Shown here: positions 2,454 through 27,445 of the stretch, piece after piece
How the letters are laid out: every line of letters begins with the position of its first letter
Numbering within the stretch: the first letter of the stretch is position 1
Virus record (IMG/VR): IMGVR_UViG_3300050821_013875
Coordinates: 1 to 27,778 of that record
Length of the DNA: 27,778 bases
Direction: 5' to 3' (one strand)
DNA from: a virus
Translations under genes and position numbers: made by a program
Notes under the pieces: model-generated
Databases searched by the model: none
What the model was told of the DNA's origin: nothing
What the model saw: the letters and a program-made list of their open reading frames with translations, nothing else

Positions 2454-2502
2454 ACGTTTCCGAGCCCGGGCGGGCCCACGGAGAAAAAAGATCGAACGGG
2501 TC

Positions 2503-2531
2503 TTGACGGTAGGTCAATCATGTCCTACCTT
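2503..2531 (+). promoter_or_regulatory. Early operon promoter with palindromic operator
   Basis: A TTGACG -35 box (2503-2508), a 17-base spacer and a TACCTT -10 box (2526-2531) make a good sigma-70-type promoter. A perfect TTGAC-N5-GTCAA palindrome (2503-2517) covers the -35 box, and a second inverted repeat GGTAGG-N10-CCTACC (2508-2513 / 2524-2529) covers the spacer and -10. The ATG at 2538 is 6 bases after the -10 box, so transcription should start at or within a base or two of the start codon. Confidence 0.7.
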
Positions 2532-2537
2532 TGGGAC

Positions 2538-2792
2538 ATGAGCGAGCGAGAATACACGGCGATTGCGGCGGTTCCTGCTTCCCGCGAGGCGGCCTGGCGC
2601 GAGGTCGAGAGCCGCGCGAAGGCGGCAGCGGACGCGGTGCGCGGGCACCGGGTGCTCGAGAACATGGCGGGCCGCGTGGCGCGCTGGGACGTGATCGAGG
2701 TCGACGCGCGCGGCGGCTTCCTCGCCCGGGTCGGGACGTACGCGACGCAGGACCGCGCCTTCGCGCGGGTCGCCGAGCTCGGGGGCCGATGA
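2538..2792 (+). CDS. Small hypothetical protein, first gene of the early operon
   Basis: The product is 84 aa and I do not recognise a family. It is charged, mostly helical in the first half (a Lys/Arg/Glu/Ala helix around residues 14-35), then turns to short strands (WDVIEVDARGGFLARVG). The ATG at 2538 is preferred over the in-frame ATG at 2520: the latter lies inside the promoter spacer, while 2538 sits 6 bases downstream of the -10 box and suits a leaderless message. It overlaps the next gene by ATGA. Being first behind a strong, operator-covered promoter suggests an early function, but the sequence gives no activity. Confidence 0.65.
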   Translation: MSEREYTAIAAVPASREAAWREVESRAKAAADAVRGHRVLENMAGRVARWDVIEVDARGGFLARVGTYATQDRAFARVAELGGR

Positions 2793-6438: not shown

Positions 6439-6905
6439 ACGCGAAGCTCGAAAGCCTCTTGCCCCGCCGCATCGTCGCGACGCTCGCTGCGGTCGCCGCG
6501 GCTGAGCGCGTGATCGAGGAAGAGCTCGCGGCTTGCGCGATCGACGCGCCGTCGCTTTCGGACGTCTTCCAGGTCGTCGCGCCCACGCGGCACATGCTCG
6601 AGCTCGTGCCCGAGGTGTACGCCTCGCACGCGCGCGAGCTCGTGCGACGGATGATGCGCGGCGAGGACGTGGCGCTCGGCACGAAGGCCGAGGTCATGCT
6701 CGCGTGCTCGATTGCGAGCTTGCGCGCGCCGCTCGTGTCGCTCGACGCGGGTCTTTACGAGGAGCTGTTCATCGAGATCATGGGCGCCGCGGCCGCGGCT
6801 CGATGCGAGGTCACCCTTCGGCCGGAGCCGTGGACGGGCGCTCGCGCGGAGCGCCTCGCAGAGCTGCGGCGCGCGACGCGCGTACCCGCGAGGAGGCCGG
6901 GCTAG
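6435..6905 (+). CDS. Hypothetical protein, helical
   Basis: The product is 156 aa from a GTG start overlapping the previous stop. Ala/Glu/Arg-rich helices dominate, without membrane segment, Cys cluster or catalytic signature. Its TAG stop overlaps the TAG stop of the minus-strand gene at 6902-7063: the four bases CTAG serve both. It closes the first part of the small-gene train; the next plus-strand gene has its own promoter. Confidence 0.55.
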   Translation: MNAKLESLLPRRIVATLAAVAAAERVIEEELAACAIDAPSLSDVFQVVAPTRHMLELVPEVYASHARELVRRMMRGEDVALGTKAEVMLACSIASLRAPLVSLDAGLYEELFIEIMGAAAAARCEVTLRPEPWTGARAERLAELRRATRVPARRPG

Positions 6906-7063
6906 CTGAGCTTCGCGATCTTCTCGATCATGAAGAGGCCGACAACGAGGCCAGCGGCGAACATGATCTCGCCGATGCGCGCGACCTTCTGGTTCGTGGT
7001 CGCGAACGCGTAGATCAGCAGGCCAGCGACGGCGACGGCGAGCGGAAGGAGCGCGAGGAGCAT
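6902..7063 (-). CDS. Small two-helix membrane protein
   Basis: The product is 53 aa from the ATG at 7063. It is almost entirely two hydrophobic segments: residues 1-21 (LLALLPLAVAVAGLLIYAFA) and about 32-49 (IGEIMFAAGLVVGLFMIE), joined by a short TTNQKVAR loop and ending in KIAKLS. This is a style common among small phage and mobile-element proteins (holin-like or envelope-modifying) without a firm assignment. It is the only short minus-strand gene inside a plus-strand train, and it faces away from the operator-bearing promoter at 7121. A longer in-frame start at 7144 exists, but would add a non-hydrophobic leader inside that promoter. Confidence 0.55.
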   Translation of the reverse strand: MLLALLPLAVAVAGLLIYAFATTNQKVARIGEIMFAAGLVVGLFMIEKIAKLS

Positions 7064-7120
7064 CCGTGGATCTGCCACGCGCGAACGTGGTGCGGTCCCT
7101 GAATTCGGACGCAGGCGTTC

Positions 7121-7149
7121 TTGACAGTCGGACAACAACGGCATAGGGA
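7121..7149 (+). promoter_or_regulatory. Promoter with imperfect TTGAC-N5-GACAA operator
   Basis: A TTGACA box (7121-7126) is followed after 17 bases by TAGGGA (7144-7149), a weak -10. TTGAC-N5-GACAA (7121-7135) is one base short of the perfect palindrome at 2503 and 18095. Its first 17 bases (TCTTGAC-n-GT-n-GG-n-CAA, from 7119) match the 2501 site at most positions. It lies between the divergent genes 6902-7063 and 7162-7794. Confidence 0.5.
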
Positions 7150-7161
7150 CTAGAGGCGCGA

Positions 7162-7794
7162 ATGAGCGAATCGAAAGCCATCACGAAGGTCATCCTCGAT
7201 CTCGAGACGAACCCCGATCTCGATCCGGACGATCGGCACCGGTACGCGAACATCGTGCGCGACTACATCGACACGCTCGAGCGCAAGATCGAGGCGAGCG
7301 CAGCGCGCGGCGCGCGCGAGGTCGAGAAGGTGTTCGCGCCGCCCGGGCCTCGGGAGCGGAACGTGCTCGTGTGGAGCCGAGGGACGAGCGTCAGCATCCG
7401 GCTCGACGGTCCCGAAGAGGCGGCGTGGCTCGAGGAGCTCGCGACGGACTGCCCCCAGGCGATTCGCTTCCGGCTCGAGCCGCAGAGCGCGAAGAGGGTC
7501 GAGGCGAACGTTGAGCACGCGTGGATGCGCGGCCTTCGCGCTCACGTGCTCCCTGTTCGCGTCTCGCGGGTCGACGAGGGCCAAGCTGCCCGGCCGTTCG
7601 ACGAGCGCGTTCTCGAGGCAGTGAGGGCCGTCAGCGAGGCGGGCGACTGGGTGCTCTGGGGGCCGCGCCGGCGGAACGTGGGCGGCCACAAGGGCGACTC
7701 GCTCATCGTCACCTTCTCCCGGACGAGGCTCGAGCCGTGGGGCGAGGACACGCTCGGCGACGACGCCGACGGAGACGCCGCCGATGACGGATGA
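7162..7794 (+). CDS. Hypothetical protein
   Basis: The product is 210 aa, the first gene behind the promoter at 7121. The ATG at 7162 follows a possible TAGAGG ribosome binding site with about 5 bases of spacing. Residues 1-50 are helical (KAITKVILDLETNPDLDPDD and a basic helix). Strands and helices with WSRGTSVSIRLDGPEEAAWL follow, then AGDWVLWGPRRRNVGGHKGD and an acidic tail (DDADGDAADD). No family is recognised. It overlaps the next gene by 11 bases. Confidence 0.6.
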   Translation: MSESKAITKVILDLETNPDLDPDDRHRYANIVRDYIDTLERKIEASAARGAREVEKVFAPPGPRERNVLVWSRGTSVSIRLDGPEEAAWLEELATDCPQAIRFRLEPQSAKRVEANVEHAWMRGLRAHVLPVRVSRVDEGQAARPFDERVLEAVRAVSEAGDWVLWGPRRRNVGGHKGDSLIVTFSRTRLEPWGEDTLGDDADGDAADDG

Positions 7795-8474: not shown

Positions 8475-8566
8475 GGACACCGATCGAAGAGATGAAGTCG
8501 CGTCTCCGCAAGCCCTACCGGGCGAGGCGCACGGAGCCGCGGCCAGGGCTGGAGGATTGTCGATGA
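8471..8566 (+). CDS. Possible 31-aa leader peptide or small protein
   Basis: A short frame from an ATG that overlaps the previous stop (ATGA) to a TGA that overlaps the helicase ATG (ATGA). It is very basic (RLRKPYRARR). The perfect overlap on both sides argues for real translation coupling, but the length makes it uncertain as a functional protein. Confidence 0.35.
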   Translation: MRTPIEEMKSRLRKPYRARRTEPRPGLEDCR

Positions 8567-10848
8567 CCGACTGGTCTCACTACCAGCGCGCGATCTTCGA
8601 CTTCGTGGAAGACCCCGCCGAGCACGCGGCGGCGCGGAGCGCGGTCGTGGTCGCGCGCGCTGGTAGCGGCAAGACGACGACGCTCATCGCGTCGGCGGCG
8701 CGCTACCCGATTCGTGGTCGCATGGCGATCGTGGCTTTCGCCAACAAGAGCAAGGATCGGATCGAAGCATCGGGCCCGCCCAAACACTTCGACGTGACGA
8801 CGTTGCATTCGCTCGGGCTGACGCTCCTCAAGCGCCACAACCCCCGCTTGAAGGTCGACAAGGAGGGCGAGAAGCTCCTCGAGATCGTCGGGCTCGAGCG
8901 CGGCCTGACGCCGGCGCAGCGCAAGCTCGTGGCGTCGGTCGTGAAGGTGGCGAAGACGCGGCTGCTCATGAGTGAGCCCGAGATCGAATCGCTCTTGCTC
9001 GACATGGACGACGGCGAGCTCGCCTCGCGCGAGGACGTGGATGTCGCAGCGCGGGCGGTGTCGAACGTCCTCTTCGAGTGCCGCGAGCGCGACGGGCTCG
9101 TCGACTTCGACGACATGATCTGGTTGCCGGTCGAGCTCGGCTTGTCGGCAGCGCATTACCGCGTGCTCTTGGTCGACGAGCTGCAGGACATGACGCGAGC
9201 GCAGACGGCGCTCGTGGCGAGCGTGACGCTCGGCGGTCGCGTGCTCGGCTTCGGCGATCCGGCGCAATGTCATCCGCCCGGGACCATGATCGACGTAGGC
9301 GGCGGCGCCGCCATCCCGATCGAGAACCTGCGCGATGGCGAACGCGTTCGCGGGTGGGAGCGCGGGTCCCAACGGATGGGAGCCGGGCGCACGATTCGTG
9401 TCGCCCGCCGGCCGTACGTCGGCGAGATGCTCGACGTTCGCGTCGGTGCCTCGATCGCGCCCATGACGCCGAATCACAAGGTACTCGCGAGGTGGAGCGA
9501 TCGGACGCCTGGCACGTGCGTCACCTATCTGATGTATCGGCACGGGTTCGGGTGCCGCGTCGGATGGTGTCAGCTCTTCATGCGCCCGACCGCGAGTGGC
9601 AGCGGTGCCTTGCATCTTCCGGTTCGTCATCGTCTCGAGAGGGCGGACGCTACGTGGATCCTGAAGGTGCACAGCACGCGCACGGAGGCCAGCGCGTACG
9701 AGAGCATCGTCGCGGCGACGTACGGCCTTCCGACGATCACGTTCGAGCCGGTCAAGGGGGCGCAGCATCTCACCGAGGCGACCATCGCTCATGTCTTTCG
9801 CGAGCTGTGGGCGGATAACGGCTCGCGCGGCGCTGCGTGCCTGAAGGCGCACGGCTTGGCGCCCGAGCTGCCTTTCTACCCGTGGCCGAATCGAGAGAAG
9901 GACGCGCCCCAGGGCCGTCGCACGTTTTTCGAGGTCTACGCCGCGAACCTGATCCCCGAGATGATGTCTCTCCCAACGGCGCTCGGGCCGTGGGTTCCCG
10001 TGTCAAAAGTGTGGCGGCGTCCGTACAGCGGAGACGTCTACTCGCTCGATGTAGATCGAGATCACAGCTACGCCGCGAATGGCGTGGTCGTCTTGAACTG
10101 CATCTACCAGTTCGCCGGCGCGTGCGACGACGCGGTCGGGGATCTCGCGGCGCGCACGAACGCGGTCAAGCTGCCGCTCTCGATCAGCTACCGGTGCCCG
10201 CTCTCGGTCATCGAAGAGGCGCAGCTCTACGTGCCCGACATCGAGGCGCGCCCGAACGCGCCTGATGGCAAGGTCGTAACGAACAGCAACATGCACGCGG
10301 TGCGCGTCGGCGACCTCGTGCTCTCGCGCACGAACGCGCCGCTCCTTCGGCAGTGCATCGCGTTCGTTCGCGCCGGCGTGCCCGCATACGTGGCGGGGCG
10401 CGCGTACGGTGAGGAGCTCACGCGCCTGCTCGATCGCGCGCGCTCGAGCGATACGGCGGCCTTCTTGCGCTACCTCGAGGGCTGGGCGCGGAGCGAGCGG
10501 CAGAAGCTCGAAGCGGCCGGCAAACCGACCGACCGAGTCGACGATCGGCTCGCGTGCTTTCACGCGCTCGCGGACGGAGCGAGCACGATCCAGGCCCTCC
10601 GCTCGCGACTCGGCAAGCTGTTCACGCCTGCGCGCGACGGCGCCCCCGCGGTCGTCTTCTCGACGGTGCACCAGATGAAGGGCGACGAGTACGACAGGGT
10701 GTTTGTCCTCGACGACACCTTCCGACTGAGTCGGGAGAAGTTCGCAGAGGAGCCCGAGGCGTACCGCGGCAAGGAGGAAGCGAACCTGCGCTACGTGGCG
10801 GTCACGCGCGCGAAGCGCGAGCTGCACTACGTGGCTGGGATCCGGTGA
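8563..10848 (+). CDS. UvrD-like superfamily 1 DNA helicase interrupted by an intein
   Basis: A 761-residue precursor that should splice to a 484-residue ATP-dependent helicase. The ATG at 8563 is chosen over the TTG at 8557 because GGAGG (8551-8555) is 7 bases from the ATG and only 1 from the TTG. SF1 motifs in order are: Walker A ARAGSGKTTTL (31-41); motif Ia FANKSKDR; TTLHSLG; Walker B/II LLVDELQDM (near 205); motif III GDPAQ (residues 231-235) joined after splicing to CIYQFAGA; motif IV LSISYRCPLSV; motif V VHQMKGDEYDRVFVLDD (near 700); and motif VI LRYVAVTRAKREL. The intein occupies residues 236-512. The protein is short for UvrD/Rep (usually about 700 residues), so accessory domains are reduced. 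Likely role: phage DNA replication or recombination. The next gene starts in a GTGA overlap. Confidence 0.85.
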   Translation: MTDWSHYQRAIFDFVEDPAEHAAARSAVVVARAGSGKTTTLIASAARYPIRGRMAIVAFANKSKDRIEASGPPKHFDVTTLHSLGLTLLKRHNPRLKVDKEGEKLLEIVGLERGLTPAQRKLVASVVKVAKTRLLMSEPEIESLLLDMDDGELASREDVDVAARAVSNVLFECRERDGLVDFDDMIWLPVELGLSAAHYRVLLVDELQDMTRAQTALVASVTLGGRVLGFGDPAQCHPPGTMIDVGGGAAIPIENLRDGERVRGWERGSQRMGAGRTIRVARRPYVGEMLDVRVGASIAPMTPNHKVLARWSDRTPGTCVTYLMYRHGFGCRVGWCQLFMRPTASGSGALHLPVRHRLERADATWILKVHSTRTEASAYESIVAATYGLPTITFEPVKGAQHLTEATIAHVFRELWADNGSRGAACLKAHGLAPELPFYPWPNREKDAPQGRRTFFEVYAANLIPEMMSLPTALGPWVPVSKVWRRPYSGDVYSLDVDRDHSYAANGVVVLNCIYQFAGACDDAVGDLAARTNAVKLPLSISYRCPLSVIEEAQLYVPDIEARPNAPDGKVVTNSNMHAVRVGDLVLSRTNAPLLRQCIAFVRAGVPAYVAGRAYGEELTRLLDRARSSDTAAFLRYLEGWARSERQKLEAAGKPTDRVDDRLACFHALADGASTIQALRSRLGKLFTPARDGAPAVVFSTVHQMKGDEYDRVFVLDDTFRLSREKFAEEPEAYRGKEEANLRYVAVTRAKRELHYVAGIR
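9268..10098 (+). mobile_element. Intein in helicase motif III (277 residues)
   Basis: The intein runs from Cys236 (after GDPAQ) to Asn512 (before CIYQF). The N-terminal splice block reads CHPPGTMIDV, with PIENLRDGERVRGW after it. Block B is PMTPNHKVLARW (T-x-x-H). The C-terminal blocks are YSGDVYSLDVDRDHSYAANG and VVVLN, with Cys as +1 nucleophile. The usual penultimate His is replaced by Leu. There is no LAGLIDADG pair. Between block B and the C-terminal part lies an insert with TYLMY, CRVG, a following Arg, then WILKV and AYESIVAATYG. Its spacing recalls a GIY-YIG type nuclease, but it is too divergent to name with confidence. Confidence 0.85.
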
Positions 10849-17360: not shown

Positions 17361-17394
17361 AAAAAAAGCGGCGCCCGAATTCTCGGGCGCCGCT
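17361..17394 (-). terminator. Rho-independent terminator of the integrase gene
   Basis: AGCGGCGCCCGA (17367-17378), loop ATTC, and TCGGGCGCCGCT (17383-17394) form a perfect 12-bp stem with a 4-base loop. On the minus strand the stem is followed by seven T (17367-17361). It sits 51 bases after the integrase stop. The plus strand lacks a T-tract after the stem, so it acts on minus-strand transcripts. Confidence 0.9.
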
Positions 17395-17444: not shown

Positions 17445-18059
17445 CTAGCAGGGCAGCGCAGCGACGGCGCGCAGCAAGTCCTCGTCGCTGGCCTGGGCGT
17501 AGATCGTCGTCGAGATCACGCTCGCGTGCCGGGCGACGCGCTGGACGAGGCGGATGTCCTTGGTCGCGCGGTAGAGGTTCGTGAGCGCCGTGTGTCGCAG
17601 CGCGTGGAAGGTGAACCGGCGCTCGAAGCCGGCGCGCTCTTGCCAGACGCCGAAGAGGTGGCGGAGCTGCCGCGTGGAGATGCGACCGCCGCGGAGCGAG
17701 ACGAAGAGCGGCGCGTCGAAGACGAGCGACTCGCCGTCGGCCTTCTTGACCTGCAGGAGGCGCGCGAGCTTGCTTCGGAGCGAGTCGGGCAGGACGGCCT
17801 CTTGCGCGTGCGGGTCGTCGTTCGAGCGCTTGAACACGCGGAGCGCGAAGCGGCGACGCACGTTGCGGCCGTCGTGCGAGACGTCGCCCACGTTGAGCGC
17901 GGCGATCTCGTGCTCGCGCAGGCCGGTCCCGAGCGCGAACGCGAAGAGCACGTGGTCGCGGAAGCCGTCGCGACGCAGCCCGGAGACGCGCAGCAAACGA
18001 GCCTGCTCGTCGTCGGTGAGGGTCTTCGGCGCGCGGCGGATCGTGTCGACGTAGGGCAT
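17445..18059 (-). CDS. Minimal tyrosine recombinase / integrase
   Basis: The product is 204 aa. All catalytic residues of the family are visible: R48 (TGLREHE), K77 (RVFKRSN), H152-x-x-R155 (FHALRHTA), H178 (VARHASV) and Y187 (STTIYAQ). It lacks the N-terminal arm-binding and the separate core-binding domain of typical phage integrases (300-400 aa): only about 12 residues precede the catalytic fold. The ATG at 18059 is chosen because the -10 box ends at 18067 and the possible TTG at 18095 is the -35 box itself. It stands alone on the minus strand inside virion genes, with its own promoter and terminator. It may integrate the phage, resolve multimers, or invert a nearby segment; no att site is recognisable. 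Confidence 0.85.
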
Positions 18060-18066
18060 GGTTCCC

Positions 18067-18095
18067 ATAGTAGGACGACATTGACATAGCGTCAA
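18067..18095 (-). promoter_or_regulatory. Integrase promoter with palindromic operator
   Basis: Reading the minus strand, TTGACG (18095-18090), a 17-base spacer and TACTAT (18072-18067) form a strong promoter. The palindrome TTGAC-N5-GTCAA occupies 18095-18081. The element from TCTTGACG to GTCCTAC aligns without gaps to the promoter at 2501-2528. The ATG begins 7 bases after the -10 box, so the message is probably leaderless. Confidence 0.75.
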
Positions 18096-18134
18096 GATCC
18101 GCGCTCCTCGCGTGCGCTCTCGCGCGTGCTCGTG

Positions 18135-18148: not shown

Positions 18149-18448
18149 ATGCGCTCCGAGTTCCTGCAGCTCCCGATGCCCGCGTTTCCGGCAGGCGGCC
18201 CGGGAGCGTCGATCGATGTCTCCGGCCTCGAGCAGAAGTTCGTGCAGATCGGCGGTAGCTTCACGGCCACGGTCGCGGTCGAGGGCACGATCAACGGCGC
18301 GGACTGGGTCGCGGTCGCGAGCGTGACGGGGCCGATGCTGATCCAGGTCATTCCCGTCTTCGCTGGCCTGCGCGTCAACGTGACGGGCTACTCGAGCGGC
18401 CCCACGCCGACGGCGATGGTCTCGGGCTTCAACCGGCGGACGGAGTAG
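18149..18448 (+). CDS. Small virion protein
   Basis: The product is 99 aa with the strand pattern [20 protein letters not shown], then [20 protein letters not shown], then [20 protein letters not shown]. This is a well-known style of small phage structural proteins of about 100 aa, with a VEGTxxGxxWxxV centre and a YSSGxP end. It is the first plus-strand gene after the integrase, preceded by a possible -10 box. Function in the virion is unknown. Confidence 0.55.
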
Positions 18449-18450
18449 GC

Positions 18451-19701
18451 GTGACGACCGGCGGCATCATCTACGCGGAGCCGAACCGTCAGGTCGTGTA
18501 CGGCGGCGGCGGCGGCGCTGCAGCGGCGTCGTTCCCGACGTCGTGGCACATCGCGAGCACGGGGAACGACGCAGGAGACGGAAGCGCGTCGTCGCCCCTG
18601 AAGACGTTCGCGGAGCTTGTTCGTCGAGCTCGCGCGCTGAACCAGCCGATCGTCGCAAACGGTACGATCCAGTTCGACGACGCCTCTTCCGAAGCTCTCG
18701 ACCTCGGTGCGCTGCCGCTCGATGGCGCAGCCACGTGGACGATCCAGGGCGCCCCTCCGACTGTGCTCGCGACCGGTGCTGTCTCCGCGGTGACGGCGTA
18801 CAACGCAGGCTCGGGCTCGTTCGGCGTGACGGGATCGATCACGGACAGCTCGCAGAGCTCGAGCTCGTTTTGGACGCCGTTCGTCGGCAAGCTGGTGATC
18901 CTCACGAGCGGCACGAACGCGGGAGCGTGGGCCTGGGTCGACGCGGACTTGGGCTCGAAGGCTGCGCGTCTCTCGCCGTTCTGGGATCCGAACTTCTTCT
19001 CGTGGATCACGCCGACGATCGGAGACGCCTACGAGATCGTCGACATCGTGACGCTCTCGGGGTTCATCGGCACGTTCGGTCGCGGCGACGGCGTGGTCAA
19101 CGTGAAGCAGCTCCACTTCACGGGCCTCGTCTACCACTACGGCGGACAGACGACTTTCGCTGCGTGTCGCTTCGACAACACCGCGAACTTCTTCTCGACG
19201 CTGTATCTCGATCTCTTTGGTTGCGACTTCGCGGCGGACGTCACCTTTCAATCGAAGAACGATCAGGGGTATGTCGACGCGTGCCGATTCGGCGCGCGGC
19301 TCCGCATGTTCGGCGGGACGATTCAGCTCTCCACGCACTGCCTCTTCAGCGGAGCGAGTGCGATCATCGATCACAAGGGCGGCGTGCTGATCGTCGAGGA
19401 CGACGTCGCGATGGTCGGCTTCACTTCGGTGCCGATCCGGCTCGTCAATTTCTACGGCCCCGCGTACCTCAATCTGTTGGGTCGCATCTACGGCGCGGCC
19501 GGGTCGAATCCCGCCTGGGTCGTGCAGACCGACGCGCCTGCGACGGTGGCGCTCTCCGATACTGCGAAGTGTCCCCGCCTCGCCGCGGGCTCGAGCGGCT
19601 ACGCGTCGCTTGGCGGCACGACGAAGGCTACGGTCTCGACGGTGAACACCGCGAGCGTGCTCACCGCCAACGGGGCGGGCTGGATCTATCCGGCGATCTG
19701 A
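18451..19701 (+). CDS. Probable right-handed beta-helix tailspike
   Basis: The product is 416 aa from a GTG start 2 bases after the previous stop. After a Gly-rich linker the sequence reads SWHIASTGNDAGDGSASSPL and KTFAELVRRARAL, the typical entry into phage tailspike beta-helices (a first coil with GNDxGDGSxxxPLKTxxE). The rest has irregular parallel-helix-like turns (VNVKQLHFTGLVYHYGGQTT, CRFDNTANFF, LFGCDFAADVTFQS), with Cys and Asn at repeated places. The end is a Thr/Ala/Gly-rich short domain (LGGTTKATVSTVNT). Tailspikes bind and often degrade surface polysaccharide. An enzymatic site cannot be picked out. Confidence 0.6.
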   Translation: MTTGGIIYAEPNRQVVYGGGGGAAAASFPTSWHIASTGNDAGDGSASSPLKTFAELVRRARALNQPIVANGTIQFDDASSEALDLGALPLDGAATWTIQGAPPTVLATGAVSAVTAYNAGSGSFGVTGSITDSSQSSSSFWTPFVGKLVILTSGTNAGAWAWVDADLGSKAARLSPFWDPNFFSWITPTIGDAYEIVDIVTLSGFIGTFGRGDGVVNVKQLHFTGLVYHYGGQTTFAACRFDNTANFFSTLYLDLFGCDFAADVTFQSKNDQGYVDACRFGARLRMFGGTIQLSTHCLFSGASAIIDHKGGVLIVEDDVAMVGFTSVPIRLVNFYGPAYLNLLGRIYGAAGSNPAWVVQTDAPATVALSDTAKCPRLAAGSSGYASLGGTTKATVSTVNTASVLTANGAGWIYPAI

Positions 19702-23532: not shown

Positions 23533-23825
23533 AGTTCGAGCTCGAGCACAAGCGCTGCTGTCCTTCGGAGCTTCGGCGCGGTGAGGCGAAGAGGATCCCG
23601 AAAAATCCGCTCCATCCCGCGTGCGGCTTCTACGTGGGATGCCCGTCGTGCGGGCGGCCGCAGACTGTGACGACGCGCGCCATCGATCCGGACCTCGGCC
23701 AGGTGTGCAGCGAGACGTCGACGCCGGCTGGCGCGCTCGTGGTGACCTTCGAGCCGGGGCACACGTGCAGCCGATGCGGCGTGCGGTTCAGCGTGCAGGC
23801 GAACGAGGTCGTGATTCACGCATGA
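23529..23825 (+). CDS. Zinc-ribbon protein between portal and head gene
   Basis: The product is 98 aa from a GTG start overlapping the portal stop. Two CxxC knuckles (CPSC at 38-41 and CSRC at 80-83), in a ribbon-like setting (CPSCGRPQ, then PGHTCSRCGVRFSV), indicate one zinc site. A basic N-terminal segment (KHR-type with RCCPSELRRGEAKRIPKN, Cys 10-11) precedes it. Zinc ribbons at this place in head clusters occur in several phages, role unknown. The stop overlaps the start of the giant head gene (ATGA). Confidence 0.55.
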
Positions 23826-26800
23826 TGCTCCACGATCTCTACGCGGAGGGCGCTGCCGCCGCGGCCGGCATCCTGCGCGACGTCTACAAGGTCGACGTCT
23901 ACAAGGCGCTCGATCCGCTGAAGCACGACGACTTCGCGAAGATCACGCGGCATCTCGCGAAGGATCTGAAGGGGCTCGCGCTGCCGGTCGAGGCGAAGGC
24001 GCTGAAGCACGCCGTCGAGATGCTCGACGTCGACTGGCACGGCATCTCGATGGAGGCGCGCGGCGCCGTCGTCGCCGAGGCGCAGAAGTACATCAGCGAT
24101 ATCGGCCCGCACGTGATGCCCGCCCTCGAGCAGAAGCTCTCGGTGTTCGCGAAGGATCTCGGTGCGACGACCAAGAAGAACACCGTGCTCGCGCACGACC
24201 TCAAGATCTCGACGTCGTTGAACGCGACCGACGAGCGGATCATGAAGTTCGCCGCCGACAGCCAAGGGCACTACGTGCGCGACGCCTTCGGCAAGCGCGC
24301 AGACGAAGCGGGGGACACGGCGCGCTTCATCGTGTCGTCCGGGCTCGAGGACGGGCTCGGGAGCGCCGACATCTCGGCGAAGCTGAGCAAGTACCTGGGC
24401 GACAAACTCGGCCGCACCGACTCCTACTGGACGACGATCGCGATGGTCTTCGCGAACCGCGCGCGCACGAGCGTGCAGCTCTTCGCGTTCGCCGAGGCCG
24501 GGATCGAGACGTACACCTGGGAGAGCGTGCTCGACGAGGTGACGAGCCTGCAGTGCCGGTTCATGCACGGCCGTCAGTTCTCCGTTGGCGGCGCCGTGCA
24601 GAGCATCCACGCGGTCGAGGACGGAGGTCCCGAGTCGATCAAGCTCGAGGCGCCGTTCCTCAACGTGTCGGGGAACAGGCTCTACGCCCAGATCGGAGAC
24701 GGCCCGACCGGGCAGCTCACGGTCGCGCAGTCGATCGAGAGCGCTGTCGGGCAGAAGGACAAGATCGGCACGTTCTCGAGCACGCACACCGACAAGGATC
24801 TCGAGAACCTCGGCATCCGCATGCCGCCCCTTCACGGGCGGTGCCGGAGCACCGTGATCCCGGCGATCGCGCCTCTCTCTCCCGCTGCGCCGCCGCCCCC
24901 CGAGCCCCCGCCGAAGGTCACGCCTGCGCAGGCCAAGCAGCAAGCCCTGAAGCTCCTCGACGACTCGAGCTTCAACCAGCTTACGGACGTCGAGCTCGTG
25001 TTCCCGAACGACCACCTCCCGTTCGACGTGAGCGCGCTCGCGACGGGCAAGGGCGCGACGTTCGAGGAGCTCGTCGAGGCGAACAAGATCTCGAAGAAGC
25101 CGAAGCTCGACGAGCTCGTCCCGACGGTCTCGCATCTTCCTCAGCAGCCGATCGAAGAGTTCATCAAGAGCCCGAAGAAGCTCGACGCCGCGGCTAAGCC
25201 GCTCGTCGTGAAGAAGAACGGGATGATGTTCATCGGCTCGGGTCACGAGGCGCTCGCCGCGCAAAAGCTCCTCGGCCAGAAGACCGCGTACGTCGACTTC
25301 GTCGACTTCGACAAGCCGCTCAAGGTCCCGGCCGTGGCGGCGCACGCGATCCCCGCGACGCCTCCGGCTACGCCTGCCGCATCTTCGCTGCTGACGAACC
25401 CGCACATGTCGGTCGTGTGGGGCAAGGACGCGAAGCACGAAGACGAGATCCTGCACGGGGTGAAGTTCTCGCCGGCGGCGCCGAAGGAATGGGACAAGAT
25501 CAAGGACGTCGACGTCAAAGAGCCGAAGCTGCCCGATCTGAAGCCGGGTACGAAGCGCTCGAGCGGCGTCGTAATCGTCGAGGACGACGGACGCGTGTGG
25601 CTCGTCGAGCCGAAGGACCACTTCGGCGGATATGAGCAGACCTTCCCGAAGGGCAAGGTCGATGCGGGGCTCTCCCTGCAACAGAATGCGCTCAAGGAGG
25701 CGTTCGAGGAGAGCGGGCTCGACGTCGATATCACGGGCTACCTCTGCGACGCCGAGGGTACGACGTCGAACACGCGCTATTACGTCGGGCGCCGCCGCGG
25801 AGGTGCGCCGTGGAAAGCGCACTGGGAGAGCTCGACCGTGCGTCTCGTGCCGCCCGAAGAGGCGGAGCTCTTGCTGAACACGAAGCGCGACAAGGAGACT
25901 CTCGAGAAGCTCAAGGAGTACATGAAGCCGAAGGTCGACGCGAGCGTCGTACTTGGCACGAAGCTCGGGTCGCAGCAGGGCTCGAACGAGGGCGGCTTCT
26001 ACCGCGGCACCGACGGCATCGAGCGATACGTCAAGTTCTACAAGGACGCGGGCCAAGCTCCGGCTGAGCACCTCGCGAACAACATCTACAACGATCTCGG
26101 TCATGCCGCGCCGAAGAGCAACGTCTTCGAGCACAACGGTAAGCAGGCGTACGCGAGCGAGATCATCAAGGACGTGAAGACGCTCGGCAGCGTCGGGCTC
26201 ACGAAGGAAAACGCGCGCGAAGCCATGAAGGGCTTCGTCGCCGACGTGCTCGTCGGGAACTGGGACGCGGCCGGGCAGTCGCTCGACAACATGGTCGTTG
26301 GCCCTGGCGGGAATATCATCCGCATCGACAACGGCGGATCCTTCCTCATGCGCGCCAAGAATGGCCGCAAGGACACCTCGCTGCTCAACAAGATCACGGA
26401 ATGGGAAGGCTTCTTCGACGCGAGCACGAACGCTCAATACAAGAGCGTAGCGAAGGCGGCCGGATACAACAGCGCCGCCGACATGGCGAAGGACCATCTC
26501 AACAGCGAGATCGAAAAGGTGCTCTCGCTCCGCGACGCGCACGGCGGATGGCACGGCTACGTCAGCAAGATCGCGCCCGGCCTTCCGCTCGACGACAAGC
26601 GCGCAATCGTCGAGATGCTCGAGCACCGCACGGCCTTGCTCGAAGCCAAGATCGAGCGTCCGAAGATCGAGCGCAAGCCGGGGGTGAAGATCTCGATCAA
26701 CATCTTCGACAGCGCGGATCCGGTTGCCGTGAAGGCGAGCGCGCTCATCAACAAGAGGATGGGCAAGGAGTATTACGAGAAGAACATCTATGGCAAGGCG

Positions 26801-27445
26801 GGCATCGGAGTGGACGACGCACGCGAGGCCATGAAGATCACGAGTCGATGGACTGGTGAATTCCGACTCGGAAGCATGCATCAGAGCGTCTACAAGGGCA
26901 GCGCTCGCGCCATGCTCAAGAAGCCTGGTTCGGGCGGCAGCACCGAGAAGGTCGTCGAGAAGATGGTGCTCACGCGCGAAGCGCGATGGCGAGCTTTCCT
27001 CGACGAGGCTGGCGCCAAGAGCGCGGCCGTGCCGACGCATCTGCGCGTCATGCGCGGCATGGGAGGGCGCGAGTACGTGCTCGACGTGGCGAAGGCGTGG
27101 AAGGACGACACGAAGACGCACGCGACGCTTCAGTCGCACGAGGTCGCGTCGTGGTCGTGGAGCAAGAAGAAGGCGGATGAGTTCCGCGGCGACACCGGCG
27201 TGCGGTATCACTGGGATGCGCCGCTCGAGCACACGGTCTTCGATCAGGCGACCGACGACTCTTCATTCCAGAGTTCCTTCCATCACGAGCACGAGGTCAT
27301 CGCTGGCCCTGGGCATGACAAGGGACTTGATCTCCCGAAGGAGGAACAGGTCGTCGCGCTGGACGGCGTGGAGTACGAGTACAAGGACCGTGCTAAGCTG
27401 TTCGAGGCTCTGAAGAAGGCGGGCGAGCCGGGATGGCGGCGATGA
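23822..27445 (+). CDS. Minor head protein fused to ParB-like, Nudix, kinase-like and ADP-ribosyltransferase domains
   Basis: The product is 1207 aa. Residues 1-350: SPP1 gp7/Mu F-like head morphogenesis part, with LQCRFMHGRQF (C245) and PPLHGRCRSTVIP (about 336-348). Residues 350-370: Pro-rich linker. About 415-505: ParB-like segment (KLDELVPT, PLVVKKNGMMFIGSGHEALA, H475). About 577-690: Nudix domain, box at 611-633 (GKVDAGLSL through EAFEESGL), E629 and E630 present, first Glu replaced by Leu617. About 705-950: kinase-like/HipA-type fold, with a Lys near 737 (RYVKFYK), NWD (813-815), D822-N823 and RIDNGG (D836). About 960-1200: ADP-ribosyltransferase with R1078, SWSWS (1110-1114) and E1156-H-E1158. 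This order suggests a capsid-packaged, injected polyvalent effector protein. An ATG at 23825 is a near-equal start. It overlaps the next gene by ATGA. Confidence 0.85.
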   Translation: MMLHDLYAEGAAAAAGILRDVYKVDVYKALDPLKHDDFAKITRHLAKDLKGLALPVEAKALKHAVEMLDVDWHGISMEARGAVVAEAQKYISDIGPHVMPALEQKLSVFAKDLGATTKKNTVLAHDLKISTSLNATDERIMKFAADSQGHYVRDAFGKRADEAGDTARFIVSSGLEDGLGSADISAKLSKYLGDKLGRTDSYWTTIAMVFANRARTSVQLFAFAEAGIETYTWESVLDEVTSLQCRFMHGRQFSVGGAVQSIHAVEDGGPESIKLEAPFLNVSGNRLYAQIGDGPTGQLTVAQSIESAVGQKDKIGTFSSTHTDKDLENLGIRMPPLHGRCRSTVIPAIAPLSPAAPPPPEPPPKVTPAQAKQQALKLLDDSSFNQLTDVELVFPNDHLPFDVSALATGKGATFEELVEANKISKKPKLDELVPTVSHLPQQPIEEFIKSPKKLDAAAKPLVVKKNGMMFIGSGHEALAAQKLLGQKTAYVDFVDFDKPLKVPAVAAHAIPATPPATPAASSLLTNPHMSVVWGKDAKHEDEILHGVKFSPAAPKEWDKIKDVDVKEPKLPDLKPGTKRSSGVVIVEDDGRVWLVEPKDHFGGYEQTFPKGKVDAGLSLQQNALKEAFEESGLDVDITGYLCDAEGTTSNTRYYVGRRRGGAPWKAHWESSTVRLVPPEEAELLLNTKRDKETLEKLKEYMKPKVDASVVLGTKLGSQQGSNEGGFYRGTDGIERYVKFYKDAGQAPAEHLANNIYNDLGHAAPKSNVFEHNGKQAYASEIIKDVKTLGSVGLTKENAREAMKGFVADVLVGNWDAAGQSLDNMVVGPGGNIIRIDNGGSFLMRAKNGRKDTSLLNKITEWEGFFDASTNAQYKSVAKAAGYNSAADMAKDHLNSEIEKVLSLRDAHGGWHGYVSKIAPGLPLDDKRAIVEMLEHRTALLEAKIERPKIERKPGVKISINIFDSADPVAVKASALINKRMGKEYYEKNIYGKAGIGVDDAREAMKITSRWTGEFRLGSMHQSVYKGSARAMLKKPGSGGSTEKVVEKMVLTREARWRAFLDEAGAKSAAVPTHLRVMRGMGGREYVLDVAKAWKDDTKTHATLQSHEVASWSWSKKKADEFRGDTGVRYHWDAPLEHTVFDQATDDSSFQSSFHHEHEVIAGPGHDKGLDLPKEEQVVALDGVEYEYKDRAKLFEALKKAGEPGWRR

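Follow-up and report, generated by a model that had tools for sequence, protein, structure and literature searches.

A palindromic promoter block shared by the early genes and the recombinase gene of a GC-rich phage, a candidate common operator

In the virus record IMGVR_UViG_3300050821_013875, analyzed here over its whole length (27,778 bases, linear, 68% G+C; hereafter "the window"), the predicted promoter of a plus-strand gene cluster and that of a minus-strand tyrosine recombinase gene contain nearly the same palindromic block, which raises the question of whether a single protein switches both units. The genes follow the order RuvC-like resolvase, dNMP kinase, a cluster of plus-strand genes of unknown function from position 2538, UvrD helicase, a fibre-like gene, the minus-strand recombinase, and then terL, portal and head genes. 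The phage is probably temperate, and the plus-strand cluster is presumably early, judging from its position and content. Since the record is linear and the contigs of several relatives measure 45-114 kb, a part of the phage is likely to be missing. The UvrD-type helicase gene (8557-10848) contains a 277-residue in-frame insert (9268-10098) between GDPAQ and CIYQFAGA, which is intein-like in its first residue (C) and in its end (VVVLN followed by C), and shows a weak match to the Pfam intein model (E 0.005). The region 23819-27445 encodes a 1208-aa protein with a weak Mu F-like head region and a NUDIX hydrolase domain (residues 579-697).

Site A (2501-2528, plus strand; TCTTGACGGTAGGTCAATCATGTCCTAC) and site B (18070-18097, minus strand; TCTTGACGCTATGTCAATGTCGTCCTAC) are 28-bp blocks in inverted orientation relative to each other, identical at 23 of 28 positions in an ungapped alignment. 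Each contains an exact palindrome TTGAC-N5-GTCAA, i.e. TTGACGGTAGGTCAA at 2503-2517 (plus) and TTGACGCTATGTCAA at 18095-18081 (minus), with 5-bp arms at a spacing of 5 and different central bases (GGTAG vs. GCTAT). The initial annotation had placed this palindrome over the -35 box at both loci and described flanking bases common to them, and it was accurate in both respects: the palindrome occurs exactly twice in the record, compared to 0.01 occurrences expected from dinucleotide shuffles, both times at a predicted promoter and nowhere else, and the extended pattern TCTTGACG-n-TA-n-GTCAAT-nnn-GTCCTAC matches with zero mismatches at 2501-2528 (plus) and 18097-18070 (minus). The identity between A and B ends close to the promoter, the mismatches fall between the conserved blocks, and both palindrome arms are perfect.

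Promoter A (2503-2531, plus strand) comprises a -35 box TTGACG (2503-2508), a 17-bp spacer and a -10 box TACCTT (2526-2531), followed by TGGGAC and the ATG at 2538, while promoter B (18067-18095, minus strand) comprises a -35 box TTGACG (18095-18090), a 17-bp spacer and a -10 box TACTAT (18072-18067), followed by GGGAACC and the ATG at 18059. Both fit TTGACG-17-TACnnT on the correct strand, with the ATG six (A) or seven (B) nucleotides past the -10 box. Both -35 boxes agree with the consensus at five of six positions, and the overall fit to the sigma70-type consensus is 8/12 for A (TTGACG-17-TACCTT) and 9/12 for B (TTGACG-17-TACTAT). The palindrome overlies the -35 box and about the first (upstream) half of the spacer. 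If transcription is assumed to start 7 nt past the -10 box, the predicted transcripts begin at the ATG or one base before it, and would be leaderless or nearly so; we infer from these signals that A and B are active, near-leaderless promoters of the sigma70 type. A second inverted repeat, CATGTCC-N8-GGACATG, can be read around the -10 box of site A (2519-2540, plus strand); site B retains only part of it (GTCC-TACTAT-GGGAAC), and GTCCTAC and GGGA lie one base farther apart at one site than at the other.

The first gene behind promoter A (2538-2792, plus strand) encodes 84 aa and heads the cluster that includes the UvrD helicase. According to codon-position GC, it looks coding, as does the gene behind promoter B. 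Its product has no family match and no relatives found in our search, and none of the loci fetched for comparison contains relatives of the early genes. The predicted model of the 84-aa protein is a low-confidence alpha-beta structure, without the look of a helix-turn-helix protein and with no significant fold match. Upstream of site A lies a GC-rich, non-coding-looking stretch of 440 bp (2061-2500), within which 13-bp tandem repeats AGCCGCGATCTGA occupy 2323-2374.

In an all-against-all comparison of 28-mers, A and B emerge as the top-ranking interspersed pair of the record. A pair as good was found in one of 50 shuffles, so that raw similarity by itself is unusual only to a moderate degree. 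With a fixed query, the 101-bp upstream region of the recombinase gene, searched against the 27.8 kb, the best non-self match was the site at 2501, with a score of 29.6 that was reached in none of 300 shuffles (Gumbel p ~6e-4). Outside the sigma hexamers the two sites agree at 15 of 20 positions (p ~2e-5), and thus their likeness exceeds what two sigma70-type promoters must share. Furthermore, the promoter pattern TTGAC-N16-18-TAnnnT has only two matches on both strands of the 27.8 kb, and these are sites A and B. Taken together, the fixed-query result, the agreement outside the hexamers and the uniqueness of the promoter pair make chance a very unlikely explanation.

A third copy, with one mismatch, had been listed in front of the gene at 7162. 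The mismatch count is correct (TTGACAGTCGGACAA, plus strand, 7121-7135), but this variant contains neither GTCCTAC nor a TAnnnT element at the right distance, and remains weak. On the minus strand, the overlapping stretch 7154-7127 agrees with the block at 20 of 28 positions and is the second-best match to the recombinase promoter (p ~0.02 for the 28-bp block, with 5 of 300 shuffles as good), and the record contains three palindromes with at most one mismatch vs. 0.31 expected. The setting is a divergent intergenic region (7063-7162) between a minus-strand gene (6902 to 7063 or 7144) and the plus-strand gene at 7162. The region 7121-7154 may therefore be a degenerate operator. The minus-strand gene (6902-7144), divergent from 7162, is the sole candidate on that strand within the plus-strand early cluster, and its product is small, two-helix and membrane-like (MLLALLPLAVAVAGLLIYAF...).

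Because a near-identical promoter with a palindrome precedes both genes, one protein probably switches the early block together with the recombinase. We consider a common phage repressor that co-controls both promoters to be the best explanation, to which we would give an even chance. Repression is suggested by the position of the palindrome on a near-consensus -35 box, as judged from general knowledge of promoters. In this scenario, a phage repressor acting as a dimer, with a function like that of CI or Cro, would bind TTGAC-N5-GTCAA at A and B and block RNA polymerase, so that the early cluster (2538 onward) and the recombinase gene (18059) would be silenced together, and both units would be released together upon induction or during infection. 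The repressor would be encoded outside the sequenced part, or within it in an unrecognized form. The claim of one regulator linking early expression to integration is thus supported by the non-random, promoter-embedded palindromes, but not by a recognizable regulator or by a relative that carries the block. No HTH_3 domain was found in the record, and scans against Pfam and PHROG (most gene products up to 8.1 kb and selected later ones) recognized no regulator gene, although in a linear, possibly incomplete record this does not imply absence from the phage. Also against a shared repressor, there are only two good sites in one 27.8-kb record, and the inverted repeat at the -10 box is unequally kept.

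Comparison with related phages bears on the origin of the pair. Among viral contigs, 36 relatives of TerL were found (65% identity for the best), including proviruses apparently from isolate genomes (L034-L038). The recombinase is present in most of the closer TerL relatives, nearly always divergent from terL and close to it; in the window the two are separated by two genes (18149-19701). In the set L021-L038, a catalytic-domain-only recombinase, where found, is almost always encoded beside terL in divergent orientation, a conserved pairing. The related recombinases are 56-62% identical to that of the window and lack the A/B block; instead, the upstream regions of many of them share a different block (CTTGCTTTC...GCGTGnATGG) and a stretch resembling a ribosome-binding site, both of which are absent here. 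Neither the other loci fetched nor the relatives of the helicase contain the A/B block, four relatives with the same recombinase have no comparable pair of blocks of their own at the recombinase and another promoter, and blastn searches of phage records with both promoters returned nothing useful. This negative conservation test is weak evidence against an operator, because the specificity of operators changes quickly in evolution and the search yielded no close relative. Given the different upstream block of the relatives and the likeness to the phage's own early promoter, replacement of the recombinase promoter is the simplest reading, and in this lineage a copy of the early promoter-operator seems to have taken its place.

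The same events could have occurred with no dedicated regulator, if A and B are a duplicated strong host-type promoter and their likeness reflects ancestry after the recombinase captured the early copy. The near-consensus -35 and -10 boxes, the near-leaderless geometry and the probable replacement itself are consistent with this view, and a recent promoter copy without a shared regulator would look identical. However, a recent copy should exhibit identity in the flanks, yet the identity stops close to the promoter, and an old unselected copy should have lost positions outside the hexamers, yet both palindrome arms are perfect. We regard this alternative as possible but rather unlikely.

No convincing copy of the block turned up outside the window. 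The pattern TTGAC-N5-GTCAAT-N3-GTCCTA matched 2 records among 2.9 million viral contigs, compared to 6 for a reversed control pattern; one of the two matches lies inside a portal gene and the other (TTGACCTTAGGTCAATCACGTCCTACAGT) between divergent genes of the contig L004. The single bacterial match lies inside a 1222-codon open frame, and looser patterns match coding sequence, often copies of one gene. A host or phage-wide regulon was rejected, as the outside matches fall in coding sequence save one and are no commoner than those of the control. The exception (L004:1302-1331), on an unrelated phage contig, reads CTTGACCTTAGGTCAATCACGTCCTACAGT, close to the sequence of site A; situated 5' of where one of the divergent genes probably starts, it could be real, but it is not beyond chance for the collection. 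A coding function of the block was likewise rejected: one frame is open at A, B and L004, but the changes often hit first codon positions and alter residues, and at A the frame ends at once.

The recombinase gene (17445-18059, minus strand) is followed by a terminator-like hairpin with a T run (17367-17394, minus strand). It encodes 204 aa with the catalytic domain only (PF00589 at 9e-25; PHROG integrase), in which the HxxR motif and the tyrosine are present (HALRH at residue 152, IYAQ at 186). Its alignments to XerA (136-306) and XerD (105-285) are confined to the catalytic parts of these proteins; the N-terminal core-binding domain is absent, and alignments to the closest relatives begin at the same first residue. 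The name "integrase" is reasonable on these grounds, but for a catalytic-domain-only protein the role in integration assumed by the initial annotation is itself a prediction, and neither an att site in the record nor a tRNA gene suggestive of one in the window was recognized. One may ask whether this recombinase, or its directionality factor, binds the block and regulates its own gene, site A then serving as a secondary site or a crossover site. Site B is directly upstream of the recombinase gene, A and B are mutually inverted, and autoregulated integrases with attL overlapping the promoter have been documented (PMC2951348). On the other hand, the palindrome has 5-bp arms at a spacing of 5, both sites coincide with promoter elements, and the block is missing from relatives whose recombinases are 56-62% identical. 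Tyrosine recombinases are usually intolerant of differing bases in the crossover region, and the palindrome centers of A and B differ. Such binding, under which recombination between A and B would invert the intervening 15.6 kb, appears improbable. It is less probable still that A and B are sites of the catalytic-domain-only enzyme through which it regulates its own gene and couples early transcription to recombination, possibly with inversion of the segment between them.

Also improbable is the possibility that the palindromes are activator sites, at which a CII-like protein would recruit polymerase to an establishment promoter and the recombinase promoter. Lambda CII, a single phage protein that acts both on the integrase promoter and on promoters far from it, activates PI, PRE and PAQ together and provides a direct precedent for such co-control of an integrase (PMC9986795). 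However, -35 boxes with five of six consensus positions need no activator, the site extends over the spacer of the core promoter, where repressors usually bind, and the unit behind site A is the early cluster, not a repressor gene. Finally, it is very improbable that the whole block is recognized by a polymerase or an alternative sigma factor that the phage encodes: its length would suit one, as would the GTCCTAC..T.GGGA at its end, directly in front of the start codon, but it has only two copies in 27.8 kb, its GTCCTAC-GGGA spacing is off by one base, its hexamers fit sigma70, and no such protein was found among those scanned.

If the shared repressor is real, the block would be the first operator of an otherwise undescribed group of GC-rich phages and would help to find its repressor. 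It would also exemplify how promoter replacement can place a phage recombinase gene under the switch of the early genes. Control of this kind is ordinary textbook phage biology; it is the sequence that is new. CII acts as an activator at direct repeats that flank a poor -35 box. A site of this type was not found here, where an inverted repeat overlaps a near-consensus -35 box, but the window resembles the CII regulon in that an integrase promoter would be controlled together with a distant one. Recognition of direct and inverted repeats has been contrasted previously, and YdaT of the prophage CP-933P, a lysogeny-type regulator, recognizes the inverted repeat TTGATT-N6-AATCAA (PMC9986795). This site is superficially similar to TTGAC-N5-GTCAA, but the half-site and the spacing differ, and no YdaT-like protein was found in the record. 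The dispersal of repressor operators over a temperate genome is exemplified by the stoperators of mycobacteriophage L5, which are alike in that one operator word recurs at several places, whereas here there are only two good copies. In KplE1, the autoregulated intS has a promoter that carries regulator sites (PMC2951348); IntS and TorI serve as the regulators in that case, and their sites are att arms, whereas the palindrome described here is without a recognized att site. Cluster K mycobacteriophages contain start-associated sequences, conserved repeats, some of them inverted, located just upstream of gene starts (PMC3203893), but these are 13-bp elements in many copies whose function is open, as opposed to the 28-bp promoter block present here in two copies.
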